From Branchiostoma floridae (lineage: Eukaryota; Chordata; Leptocardii; Amphioxiformes; Branchiostomatidae): 64,000 bases of DNA. Where the stretch lies: contig NC_049991.1 of the NCBI RefSeq assembly GCF_000003815.2, positions 4,522,195 through 4,586,194 on the forward strand, read 5' to 3'. Below, one piece after another: positions 15,101 through 58,364 of this stretch. Numbering within the stretch: the first letter of the stretch is position 1; each line of letters starts with the position of its first letter. The notes below the pieces were generated by a model, which was not told the origin of the DNA, did not search any database, and was given only the letters and a program-made list of their open reading frames with translations. Made by a program: the position numbers and the translations under genes.

Positions 15101-18100
15101 CCCTGTTACATTGGGTTGGGGCTTAGTGTCATGTGTTACAGTTGCACTAAGGACACAAGCCATACTTTGGCCAAAAATGTCCTTTTAAGCTCACAAATTT
15201 GAGTACAGTGCACATGATTCTTATCTTTTTGTTTGTTTTGCATGACTGGTAAAAATGCTTTAGGCATAAGACATCGGTTTTTAGGCCGAATCAGGGCTCG
15301 AAATTCATTTTAGGATTAGGTGCACTGGTTCACCTAACCTAAAAAATTTGGTACACCAAAAGAATTTTGGGTGGCACAACACTTGTGCCTGCATGCCATG
15401 GATTCAAACCCAGAACCTTTAGATTCCAAGTGAAGAACCCTAACCAGAATACCACCTTGAATCTCACAGTGCCCTGAACATGGTGGAGGAGGAGAATGGC
15501 CGTACACCCCTGCACCTGGCCTGTCTGGCCGGGAACATCGCCTGTATCCGGGAACTCATGCACTGTAATGTACAGGTGGAGAAGGCAGACAGAGAGGGGA
15601 ACACAGCATTTCACTTGGCTTCACAGTGCAACCCTGAAGCACTGGAGGTGAGGAATTGGAATCTTTTGTGTTTTCTTATGCCATGAAAATTTTGAATACA
15701 AAATCGTATTAACCATGGAGCTTGTTTTCCTTTATTTTTATTTTCATAATTCATCTTTTGTAGAATACTGAATAATTGTGATCTTTTTTGTACATTTTAA
15801 GTTACTGATAAACAATAACAAGTTGTGAAAAGTTAGCAGGAAGAAATTATTTATGATATTCATATCACGGTAACTATACCTGTCCATAGTGCTGAATGCC
15901 ATCCATACACATGTTGGTAATCACATCTGTCCTTAATGCTGAACACCATCTACACAAAGGAAACACGCCTGTCCCTGGTGCTGAAGAACATCCACACAGA
16001 AGTAAACACACCTGTCTTGGGTGCTGAACACAATCCACACACAGGTAAACACACCTACCCTAAGTGCTGAACACCATCCACACACTGGAAAGCACACCTG
16101 TCCCTAGTACTGAAAACCATCTACAGTCAAACCTGTCTATAGCGGCCACTCAAGGGACCGGACAAATTTGGCCACTATAGACAGGTGGCCTCTGTATAGA
16201 GGTGGCAACTTGTAGATAAAATACCCAAGGGACCGACAAAAAGTGGCCACTATGGCCCTCTGTAGAGGTGGCCCCTAATACAGGTTTGACTGTACACACA
16301 GTCAAACATACCTGTCCCTGGTGCTGAACACCATCCACATGCAGGAAATCACATCTGTCCCTGGTGCTGAACACCATCCACACACAAGTAAACATTTCTG
16401 TGTCGAACACCACAACACAAAAGTAAGCACCTGTCCCTGGTGCTGAACACAACCTGTAGCTGGTACTGAACACAGGTAAACACACTTGTGCTGAACACCA
16501 TCTACACACAGGCAAACACACCTGTTCCTGGTGCTGAACACCATCCACACATGTAGGTAAACACACCTTATCCCTTGTACTGAACACAGGCAAACACATC
16601 CGTCCCTAGTGCTGAACACCATCTAAAGACAGGTTAACATACCCGTCCCTGGTGCTGAACACAATACACAAGTGAACACATCTATCCCTGGTGCTAAATG
16701 GCATCCATACACAGGTAAACACATCTGTCCCTGATGCTGAACATCATCAACACACAGGTAAACACATCTATCCCTATATGCTGAACAACATTCACACAGA
16801 GGTAAACACACCTGTCTCTGGTGCTGAACACCATCCATACACAGATAAACATACCTGTCCCTGGTACTGAATACCATCTACACAGAAATAAACACATGTA
16901 TCTCTTGAGCTGAACACCATCCACACAAGGTTAAACATGCCAGTCCCTGGTACTGAACAACAACCACACACAGGTAAACACATCTGTCTCTGGTGCTGAG
17001 CAACATCCACACACAAATAAACACATCTTTCCCTAGTCCTAAACACCATACACAGGTAAACCAGCTATCCCTGCCTGGTGCTGAACACAATCCACACACA
17101 GGTAAACATATCTGTCTCTGATGCTGAACACCATCCACACACAAAGAAACACATCTGTTCCATCATGTTCTAGATTCTGTGCTCTACACGAAGCCCTGCT
17201 GTGAGTGCCCTGAACCAAGCAGGAGAGTGTCCCTTCCATGTGGCCTGCAGATATAACCAGCCCAACTGTGTCCCTGGTGCTAAAGACCATCCACACACAC
17301 ATAAACACATCTGTCCCTGGTGCTGAACACCATCCGCACACAAATAAACACATCTGTCTCTGATGCTGAACACCATCCGCACACAACTAAACACATCTGT
17401 CCCACCATGACCTATAGATCCTGTGCTCCACTCGAAGCCCTGCTGTTAGTGCCCTGAACCAAGCTGGAGAGTCTCCCCTCCATGTGGCCTGCAGATATAA
17501 CCAGCCCAAATGTGCCCCTGGTGCTGAACACCATTCACACACATATAAACACATCTATCTCTGGTGCTGAACACTATCTGCACACAAATAAACACATCTA
17601 TCCCATCATGTTCTAGATCCTGTGCTCTACTCGAAGCCCTGCTTTGAGTGCCCTGAACCAAGCGGGAGAGTCTCCCCTCCATGTGGCCTGCAGATATAAC
17701 CAGCCAAAGTGTGCCCCTGTGCTGAACACCATCCACACACAAATAAACACATCTCTCTCTGATGCTGAACACCATCTGCACACAACTAAACACATCTGTC
17801 CCGCCATGTTTTAGATCCTGTGCTCTACCCGAAGCCCTGCTGTGAGTGCCCTGAACCAAGCGGGAGAGTCCCCCCTCCATGTGGCCTGCAGATATAACCA
17901 GCCAAAGTGTGTGCAGATCTTACTGAACGTTGGAGCTAATGTCTTACTCATGGGAGCCAAGGGATACCCCATACACAGTGCTATGGAAGCCAACAGCATG
18001 GAGTAAGTATAGTTGGTAATATGGGTGCATTTTTTGACCACTAAAGTATATCTAACTTTGGACATAAGAATATCTAACGTTGCTTAAACTTATCCCTACT

Positions 18101-53985: not shown

Positions 53986-55043
53986 AATTTTTTCTATAGT
54001 CAAAGCAGTTTGGTATTAGAAAAATAATATAAACTTGAAAGATAGTTTGTCAACAAGCTGAATATACAATTAGTTGGAAACAGTAAAATGTTTCAGGTAG
54101 CATCCACTTACTTTCCATCTGTAAATCAACACAAATTAGATGCTATTTCACGTTTTGTTTTGCTTTAATGGCTACATTACAAATCATTAGGTAACACTAA
54201 CAGTTCGAGAGTTTAATACTGGCTCCTGAGCTTACTAATACTAACGGAATGTGCTGTAACTTCGGACGTAAATTAACGAGTTCGACATCGTATTGTAGCA
54301 GTGTCAGTTGTCTGAAAACTGTTGTGTTTTGACTAATGATAAATGGGCGTGGTGGTGTTTGGGAATTTTCCGTTCAGGAGTTTATTTTACATCGTCTGTG
54401 CACGATTTACACCATGCATCTCGGCCGGTAAAACAGAAAGTTGTTGTTATAGATATTGCGTTCCACATTGTTCCATTCTAAATAGGGTACCCTAACTTCG
54501 GATTACAAATACCTCTGTCTCTCTTTGACTCATTGGAACGATTTTAAGAAAACAAAAAGAAGAATTTTGTGTCAACTAACTTCATCTTCCCCCTGGTTCG
54601 TATTTTTGGACCGTGCGTAAGTTTCCTCCAATGCGAGGCCCGCTGTAACTTAGCGATTGTTTCCGCCGCTTGTTGCATTCCAAGTCACTTCAACGCTGAC
54701 GATCTGTTTCTTCGTATGGCGATGAGACTAAATACACTTTTCACACCCATGGCTCTTGAGTATGAGCGCACAAAATGCCACAAATTTGTTACAAGAATGC
54801 CGAATGTGTCGGCAGGCATGGTAACACCGGAAACAGATATGCTGACCTCTGCATGGCACCCGGCACGTGATCTCAAAGTATGCCGCAAATCCTCCATCAG
54901 TGCAGTGCAAAGTCATTGATATCTTTCAACCAAATCCTCGATTTTTTTGGGACCGCAAGCTGTATTTTTCTTGGTTTATTTTTAGGCAAGCAATGAGAAA
55001 TTCACTTTCAATTATGTTCTTGTTATGATGCACTCAGCGATTT

Positions 55044-57156
55044 CGGCTACTTCACAATCTAATGTACCCATTTTTTTTCTGACATGTTATCAGTTGATAG
55101 CAAAAGATACACAGCCTATAGCTGTTTTATAAATTCATTTCCCAAAACCTGGTACAACAAGGAACATGTCACAAAAAGAATTTTGTAAATCGGTCAATAT
55201 TTGGCAAAAATATTGACCAAAATATAACCTAAAAATGCCCAATTTTAAGCGTTATCGGGGACCATTCAGTTTTTACTAATTCTTAAACCTCAGATCTAAC
55301 AGAAAAATTGTAGTTGGTAGTTAGAAACCACTTGCTTTTGATATGCGGTCATGTGACTACTAGTGATTTTATGCTTTTTTTGAAGGACATGCCCATTTTT
55401 TGGTTCCATAGGAACTATTTTTCCATTTTACCCACATGTTGACAGATTCCAATGTTATTTTAACTGGATATATCTGTAGTCTGTAGCAGCTAATTGTTTG
55501 GTAATATTGGTGTTGTCTTTGTATGTAAAAGTAAGGTATTGTGTGTGTATAAGGTCAGAAGTAGAATAAGATCAGTAGCACACTCTTATGACATATTATT
55601 TACAAGCAAAGTCCAGGATGTCATTTTCCGAAAAAAATCTGTAGCGTCCGTACCCCCTTTAATTTCTGTACTAAGTAAATCCCAGAAGCTTGTGATTATG
55701 ACAGTTTAGAGGTCTCTATTACCACATACTAGAACACCCTTTAAACCATTGCTGTCCTGAAAACTTTGTCTAGTATAGCACTGTAAACATCAAAATGTAG
55801 CGTCCGTACCCCCTGTAGCGTCCGTACCCCCACCTGTAGCGTCCGTACCCCCATTTGAAGCTTTTTAGCAAAATGCTGTTAAAATTGCTGTCCAACTGCT
55901 ACAATTCTGATTCAATACATTAATTACAGTTCTTAAAGATATGATTGGTTAACTTTTTTCTCTAAAAATGTGACTTTTCAATGAATTTGAGCTGCATTTT
56001 TCTGAGATTTCCTCCACAAATCCACATTTGCTACACCCCCTCAGACTTCATAAATGGTTCATTCCAAAGCAGCCAAAGATGGATGTGAGATGATATTTGA
56101 TATTCCCCCATGAGTTTAGCTGATATAAGAACACCAGTTTGGTAGATCTACATTATACAAGGCATAAATTTAACATAGTATTACATAGTATGTAATGTGT
56201 AGCGTCCGTGCCCCCTGCACTATTGTTTCTCTTGTCCAAACCAATACATTGTATGTACATAGCATGTATTCAAGAAAGATGCAAGTATACATTGCTGGTT
56301 TGATGGCATGGGAAGCACTGTGTTATATTCTTTTATGTAAACCATCACTCCTTTATCACAGATTCTGTAAAATCTTCTATCAGTAGGCCTGTTATCAAAA
56401 AGTAGAGTACAGATCCAACTGAGTGGAATCTCAACTGGCATATTTATATTCTCATTTTCTTTGTTTAACTGCTGCAGTAGCATTAATGGATGCTTCAATT
56501 AATAAATAGTTAATGATTATTAGAAAATAGACATGTTTAGTGGGCTAATTCCATTGTTCACTACCAGTCTTTACTATAATTGTGTAGCGTCCGTACCCCC
56601 CTTGAAATGTTCATTAATGGTCATATGAAAGATTCTATGTTATGTTATACACTATATCTGTTGTAATTTTATGTAGAAGCCCAATAAGGATAGATAACCA
56701 CCAAAATTTAGCTACTATGGTGCCTGGATTAAGAATTATAGTATTTGATCTTTGCTTCAAGCCAAAATACCCGCATATCATTATAGCTGCTTTAGTAACG
56801 GATGACTAGAAAATGACCTAACATAGTCATACTGCAACTTGAGTTGATTTTCTAGCATAGCAAATGCTAATTATACAAGAAGATAAGGATAAAACACCCA
56901 TTTTCTGTTCTAATGTTGAATATACAGTATGCTGCAGTTCTAGTAATTCTACAGTTGTAGCGTCCGTACCCCCTTAGTGATCCATTTATAAAAGCCCATG
57001 TACAGAAGTTATAAAAGCTCGTTGTGCGGAGATCCTTTAGGATAGTAAGCGCAAGGTGTGTACCATTGAACTGCTAACAACAAAAAAAGAATAAAATGGA
57101 GTTGAATTTTCACCCCTAGTGACCCCCTTTTGGTACATTAGATTGTGAAGTAGCCG
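55044..57156. mobile_element. 2.1 kb element with perfect 25 bp inverted ends
   Basis: The ends, 55044-55068 and 57132-57156, are exact inverse copies beginning CGGCTACTTCACAATCTAAT. TTT flanks both sides, a possible 3 bp duplication. The interior is AT-rich and non-coding but carries seven copies of an 18-mer. I cannot assign it to a superfamily. Confidence 0.8.
55640..56973 (+). repeat. seven dispersed copies of TGTAGCGTCCGTACCCCC
   Basis: Copies are at 55640-55657, 55796-55813, 55814-55831, 55835-55852, 56198-56215, 56583-56600 and 56956-56973, all on the plus strand. Six are identical; the fifth has A to G (CCGTGCCCCC). Copies 2-4 are clustered, the rest are 350-380 bp apart. The GC-rich word stands out in an AT-rich background that is itself not repeated. 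Confidence 0.95.
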
Positions 57157-57538
57157 TTTGCATATTGTCAGATCGGGCGGGCCGCGCGCTGACTTCAAAG
57201 CCTGTCGCGAACTTTATGGGAGTGTAAGGTTTCATGTAGACATGAGTTTGCTACATCAATGATCCAGTCGCGTCGTGTTTCGTCAGACGGTCACTGAGAT
57301 TTTTCAAACTCAAGTTTATACGACGGGTACAAGCTAGATTAAATGCAATTTTACCGATTTGCGAGCCCTACTTGACTTATGTACAGCGCGACCAGAGGTG
57401 CCTGCACTGTTGTAGGATGTTACATTTCGAACAGCGGTCAACAGATATGACCGTGACGTAACTTGGGGAGGGCGTTCGACGCCACGATTACTTTGTAATT
57501 TCAGGTCAGTTTGATTGCCAGATAAACTCCCCAGTACC

Positions 57539-58364
57539 CAGGTGGTGCCTATCTACCTTCCCAGAATGCATCAATACACATCCAACAATTCACACCCCAG
57601 ATGGCTTACCGTGGCCCACAATCATATGGATTTCTTATGTTACCTTTCAAAATACAGCATCTAGTATAATATTATCAGCAAATCTTTATTTTCTTTAATT
57701 GTCAACAGACTAAAATGGTCCATGAGAATGTCGATTTTTGTTACTTTTGTACAACACTTAATAAATTGTGTGATAAACATTAATGCAAAGATTCATGTTA
57801 AAAATTGTGCCCAAACTTCACCAAACAGCAGTGTTTCTCTGATAATACTATTGATTGATGATATCATACCACTTGCGCATCAGAAAAACACAAATGCACC
57901 AAAAAGCACTCATGGGAAAGTAAAGAAAATGATATTTGATATATTGTTTTTGTAATAATTGTCGACAAATATCATTTTCTTTACTTTTCCATGAGTGCTT
58001 TTTAGTGCTTTTGTGTTTTTCCGATGCACAAGTAGTATAGCATCATCAATTAATGCTGTTTTGAGAAAAACACTGCTATTTGGTGAAGTTTGGGAACAAT
58101 TTTTGACCTGAATATTGCATCAATGTTTATCACACAATTTATAAAGTTGTAGGCAAGTAACAAAGATCAAGACGTTCTCATGGACTAATTGAGTCTGTTG
58201 ACAATTCAAGAATTTAAAAATATACTGATAATATTGTACTAGATGCTGTATTTTGAAAGGTAACATAAGAAATCCATATGATTGTGGGCCACAGTAAGCC
58301 ATCTGGGGTGTGAATTGTTGGATGTGTATTGATGCATTCTGGGAAGGTAGATATTCACCACTTG
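57539..58364. mobile_element. 826 bp fold-back element (MULE-like), 9 bp target duplication
   Basis: Two arms of about 400 bp are near-complete inverse copies with a loop of roughly 30 bp around 57945-57970. Ends are CAGGTGGTG and CACCACTTG. CCCAGTACC is duplicated exactly at 57530-57538 and 58365-58373. Long inverted arms with a 9 bp duplication are typical of Mutator-like elements (family knowledge). No protein is encoded. Confidence 0.85.

Follow-up and report, generated by a model that had tools for sequence, protein, structure and literature searches.

An 18-bp word conserved in a non-autonomous DNA transposon of amphioxus and changed in concert in its sister family

The window, that is, the whole stretch of DNA analysed here, comprises 64,000 nucleotides of the Branchiostoma floridae genome (contig NC_049991.1) and contains a unit of 2,113 bp at positions 55044..57156 on the plus strand. 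This unit is bounded by two 25-bp arms that form a perfect inverted repeat, with the left arm, CGGCTACTTCACAATCTAATGTACC, at 55044-55068 (plus strand) and its perfect complement at 57132-57156 (minus strand). At up to 3 mismatches, the arm has two matches in the window, compared with a mean of 0.00 in shuffled sequence. A direct repeat, TTT, abuts the inverted ends on both sides (55041-55043 and 57157-57159) and represents a target duplication that is absent from the initial annotation of this DNA. Open reading frames inside the element reach at most 92 amino acids, and two reading frames matching RAI1/DXO (PF08652) are located downstream of it. A foldback-type repeat follows the element on its right at a distance of under 400 bp; it is a 0.8-kb palindrome (57539-58364) with two arms of about 400 bp that are 87% self-complementary. 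In another part of the window (15869-17911), a tandem array of 43-bp units contains ten matches to mir-2060, a microRNA family of amphioxus, some of which may simply reflect the tandem repeat.

Within the element, the 18-bp sequence TGTAGCGTCCGTACCCCC, here referred to as the word, occurs seven times, always on the plus strand, with six identical copies and one copy with a single mismatch. Word 1 (55640..55657) sits 596 bp inside the element. Words 2 to 4 form a near-tandem trio, in which word 2 (55796..55813) abuts word 3 (55814..55831) and word 4 (55835..55852) follows 3 bp further on. The mismatch, an A-to-G change, is in word 5 (56198..56215), where the consensus of the family described below has the exact word, and words 6 (56583..56600) and 7 (56956..56973) complete a span of 1,334 bp. 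At up to 3 mismatches there are seven matches, compared with a mean of 0.01 in shuffled sequence, and chance can therefore be excluded as the origin of the seven words; outside the element, the window contains no match at up to 4 mismatches. The initial annotation, which had reported a 2.1-kb unit with perfect 25-bp inverted ends and seven same-strand 18-mers within 1.3 kb, six of them identical, thus describes the locus accurately.

The element belongs to a family, here named A, with about 24 copies in the genome. We fetched the 16 word clusters that hold the exact word matches listed genome-wide (at least 100 matches), and each of the 16 proved to be a copy of this element, 13 of them matching it in one piece over at least bases 1-2111 of 2113 with 93-98% identity and 3 being split. 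A search with the whole element gave, in the best 40 of 155 candidates, 56 matching pieces; these include 17 one-piece matches, each 1,970 bases or longer, as well as seven copies that are split, older relatives and pieces of a second family, B, the last two with identities of 67-94%. A-type ends were found at 48 places (control, 0), corresponding to 26 loci when fragments are counted, and every one of them is located at an A copy, an old relative or a fragment. Target duplications, scored in the 15 copies with both ends, are 3 bp long in 12 copies and 4 bp long in 2, with none in the remaining copy. The longest stop-free frame is 112 codons in the family A consensus and 109 codons in that of family B, frame length being the sole criterion here. 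On the basis of the shared ends, the many copies, the near-fixed target duplications of 3 or 4 bp and the lack of a long frame, and hence of coding capacity for a transposase, the element is a non-autonomous cut-and-paste DNA transposon with terminal inverted repeats. Most A copies differ by about 1% from the family consensus, and the earlier view of a recent, mobile unit is upheld by the copy number, the common ends and the target duplications. The word has no exact match in viral contigs, and at least 118 single matches of its 14-base core in prokaryote genomes are taken as chance. A search of the open-licence literature for the word, its relatives and the element ends returned no paper.

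Family B comprises about 28 elements that are collinear with A and mostly 2.1 kb long (1.8 kb in the case of copy L177), of which L177, L173 and six more were compared. Outside the words, A and B are 72% identical (813/1127 positions in the alignable parts). At all six homologous places, the B word is TGTCCCGTCCGTACCCCC, and the difference from A is the same each time, namely, A4C plus G5C and no other substitution, apart from one lost C in the homologue of word 2; word 5 of A is without a counterpart in B. The difference is confined to one triplet at bases 4-6, AGC in A and CCC in B. At up to 1 mismatch, the B word is present at 172 places genome-wide (control, 0), and the 100 of these that were listed fall into 21 clusters of 4-5 words with element-like spacing, not into arrays. 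Nine of the 14 other letter pairs at bases 4-5 were sought, with 0 matches. B-type ends occur at 62 places (control, 0): one at an old A-type copy, eight on a contig referred to as C200, and the others, as far as they were read, pairing up or falling at B word clusters among those listed. The target duplications of family B, scored by eye, are 3 bp in 4/7 and 4 bp in 3/7 copies.

The words are more conserved than the DNA around them in both families. For family A, 16 copies were compared; L131 was set aside because of problems with its alignment, and sites 60 bases or less from an N were excluded. Changes were found at 5/1552 non-CpG and 5/444 CpG positions of the words, compared with 548/29829 and 23/316 in the rest of the element, so that the words vary 3-14 times less than the remainder; random sets of seven 18-nt windows were equally invariant in 8 of 10000 cases. 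The difference is seen in the most diverged copies (L132, L138 and L140; words 1/294 and 1/84, rest 267/5691 and 8/60, for non-CpG and CpG positions, respectively) as well as in the remaining copies without L142 (words 4/1174 and 4/336, rest 267/22850 and 14/240), and the A ends, counted in the same way, changed at 5/736 and 0/62 positions. Among the matches listed, 96 of the 105 words in 15 complete A clusters are exact; if words changed at the same rate as the remainder of the element, 67% would be. For family B, seven copies were used (L179, in which the right end was not found, was dropped), and these differ by 2-9% from their consensus; nevertheless, 0/748 word positions changed, compared with 610/13344 in the rest and 2/350 in the ends. 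Exact B words make up 100 of 105 in 21 clusters among the matches listed, with word 2, which lacks one C, excluded; the binomial test for B was run on 95/100. The A copies L127-L142 and every B copy except L173 and L177 were located via exact words. This enriches the sample for intact words, and to some degree the figures thus overstate the effect. It is of note that L173 and L177 were located by whole-element similarity and that their words are intact. Furthermore, in four old copies with 71-90% identity, the words have changed too, but about 2.5-fold less than the remaining sequence (non-CpG, 7/151 in words and 476/4142 in the rest; CpG, 6/42 and 13/36).

When six A words are compared column by column, all 18 positions agree, and full agreement is reached in no flanking column (there, between 2 and 10 of the 15 pairs match). 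This bears out the earlier statement that the surroundings of the words are not repeated, similarity ending at the edges of the 18-mer, and it indicates that constraint acts on the word and not on the sequence around it. Taken with the block-like difference between A and B, edges as sharp as these are difficult to explain by drift, or by conversion whose tracts would have to end there every time, and are what selection on a recognition site produces.

The word also has a close relative outside the elements. At up to 2 mismatches, the genome contains 1155 matches to the word (486 + 669; control, 8 + 7), which is far above the capacity of families A and B (about 170 each). A query with words 2-4 (best 40 of 118 candidates) uncovered tandem arrays, seven of which were fetched; these contain 4 to 66 units each at up to 4 mismatches. 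The array unit, (A/T)GTAGTGTCCGTACCCCC, is 18 bp long and 17/18 identical to the word, from which the units differ at base 6 (T) and mostly at base 1 (A). The exact unit is found at 552 places (173 + 379; control, 0), and the 100 of these that were listed fall at 19 loci in about 73 Mb on contigs C1-C3, giving by extrapolation roughly 100-130 array loci genome-wide. Hence, the 18-mers are not restricted to the element, as the initial annotation had proposed to check: family B has its own uniform version, and the 17/18-identical unit stands in tandem at unrelated loci. Two objections had been foreseen at that stage. The 25-bp ends are not unique to this locus but belong to element families; that the 18-mer might be a common dispersed word is half borne out, a close relative of it being a dispersed minisatellite.

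With the units masked, 0/7 array loci match A or B, and we reject the idea that the arrays were brought in by the element. The flanks of one array, L192, matched only an unrelated abundant repeat (best 40 of 1348 candidates). T1 is found in 12/28 units at array edges and 28/157 in interiors, and C6 in 4/28 and 3/157, respectively; as far as these counts of non-independent units can be read, they hint that the element-type word may be the older form. Several arrays lie close to coding or coding-looking sequence: L192 immediately precedes an exon with a match to carnitine acyltransferase (PF00755), L193 stands beside a frame that by eye resembles NUDT1, and L190 precedes a coding-looking frame, the latter two frames having no Pfam match. 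Translated on the other strand, the array unit encodes the hexapeptide GGTDTT, a run that changes frame within L187-L189. In L191 (C5:2544400-2546700), the array is enclosed by inverted repeats, about 55 bp in length and unlike the A and B ends, and this locus is perhaps a third transposon carrying the word.

An autonomous relative, which the initial annotation had suggested looking for, was not found among the places and frames examined. The search covered selected places with A- or B-like ends. Inspection by eye of loci with one end only or with distant pairs of ends (L184, L185, L186 and L194) revealed no transposase, and none of the 6 frames tested from L184-L186 had a Pfam match. On contig C200, a stretch of some 40 bp similar to the left end of family B precedes clustered C2H2 zinc-finger genes, roughly 60-110 bp 5' of the ATG, at 5/5 places read of 8 (L194, L195, L196 and L197), one of the five genes, in L196, being broken. 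A partner encoding a C2H2 zinc-finger protein is largely rejected, as the gene family is a local cluster on C200 and C8 (best 40 of 82 candidates), the right element end was not found in the part of C200 that was read, and a simple recognition code, applied to the two cluster proteins with enough fingers, fitted the word no better than shuffled words. In the same best 40 of 82 candidates, many paralogue matches start past the end-like stretch, which is thus probably what is left of an insertion that was copied with the genes as they duplicated.

We consider it probable that the element is a recently moved family A copy that is mobilized by a transposase supplied in trans, and that the word is a putative cis-acting site of one DNA-binding protein, several copies of which are needed. 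The word would be read by one sequence-specific protein, and several copies would be required for efficient mobilization (or expression, or protection), so that lineages with damaged words would leave fewer copies. A shift in the specificity of this factor between AGC and CCC at bases 4-6, in either direction, would then be followed by all words of a lineage, and the tandem arrays would be the same ancestral word expanded at other loci by ordinary minisatellite turnover. Mobility, constraint and the concerted difference are observed, whereas the reader of the word, its connection with transposition and the polarity of the change are inferred; the length of 18 bp suggests a multi-finger DNA-binding domain. 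The zinc-finger genes beside the end-like stretches are not supported as this reader, and neither is binding of the word by a transposase, a possibility raised in the initial annotation. Several points count against this explanation: neither a binding factor nor an autonomous partner emerged from the searches made; most copies were located via exact words; the layout, with all words on one strand and the first 596 bp in, is odd for transposase sites; a near-identical minisatellite unit exists outside the element; and word decay in old copies is below the prediction of a simple dead-copy model.

A distinctly less likely explanation is that the transposon picked up a selfish minisatellite motif able to spread by itself, the uniformity of the word resulting from homogenization between copies and not from selection. 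The dispersed arrays with their 552 exact units, masked flanks unlike A or B in all seven cases and the near-tandem arrangement of words 2-4 would all agree with such a history. However, conversion from arrays to words would import mostly A1 and T6, and the element words keep T1 and C6; conversion between words that are 350-390 bp apart must halt at the 18-nt edges every time; and the B-type words (100 of 172 listed) are all in element-like clusters of 4-5, not in arrays. The initial annotation had left the choice between selection and gene conversion on the word open. Constraint on the word is confirmed, and selection fits better than conversion, because similarity ends at the 18-mer edges and the words have not been overwritten by the more numerous array units.

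Conservation might also stem from recognition by the host, with the word as the target of a host factor or small RNA, such as a zinc-finger protein or a piRNA-like guide, which we regard as improbable. Eighteen base pairs are six times 3 bp and thus the size of a six-finger site, and both this size and the restriction of the A/B difference to a single triplet would suit such a reader, as would the B-left-end-like stretches 5' of the C2H2 genes on C200. Yet a silenced element is expected to lose such sites, not to keep them, the simple recognition code for two C200-cluster proteins favours the word no more than its shuffles, and the end-like stretches are probably insertion remnants, paralogue matches often beginning past them. 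Young age and copy sampling alone are very unlikely to account for the conservation. Most A copies are indeed close to their consensus and the word served to locate many of the copies, but B copies that are 2-9% from theirs show 0/748 word changes, L173 and L177 were found independently of the word, and the comparison of A with B was made at 72% identity.

Returning to a word read by one DNA-binding protein, it is conceivable, as a more tentative and wider proposal, that we are looking at a co-evolving system in which transposons without genes carry six or seven exact words, the words change as a block with the specificity of their reader, and the word has left the transposons to form minisatellite arrays at a hundred or more loci. 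If this is true, the sister families A and B would represent a natural before-and-after experiment in which a repeated recognition site and the protein that binds it change together, with the changing site located in a mobile element that codes for nothing. It would also suggest an origin for a dispersed minisatellite family and link transposon recognition sites to the birth of such a family.

Maize Spm/En, Ac/Ds and similar transposons contain repeated subterminal transposase sites. The element resembles these in carrying many short, exact motif copies between terminal inverted repeats, probably read by an element-specific protein, and differs from them in that its motif is 18 bp long, has one orientation, is internal (with the first copy 596 bp in) and not clustered at both ends, and differs in concert between sister families. 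With regard to classification, the parts of the published account that we consulted describe target duplications of 3 or 4 bp for the AcademX lineage of Academ DNA transposons (PMC10045372). The mixture of 3- and 4-bp duplications in one family and the terminal inverted repeats are reminiscent of this lineage, as far as it is described there; however, the element encodes neither a transposase nor an XPG nuclease and has no coding part of any other kind, and with the resemblance being one of duplication length only, membership is a lead and not an assignment. Amphioxus is also known for "mirage" minisatellites, which, according to the sections consulted, consist of an exon-intron boundary of the gene itself repeated in tandem, their units differing in sequence (PMC3087553, PMC3902484). 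Tandem duplication across an exon-intron boundary, as defined in those sections, was seen neither in the element words nor in the arrays. Measured against that description, the likeness lies in short tandem repeats within or beside amphioxus genes, as in the array before the carnitine acyltransferase-like exon, whereas the 18-bp arrays share one unit at unrelated loci and the words of the element stand isolated.
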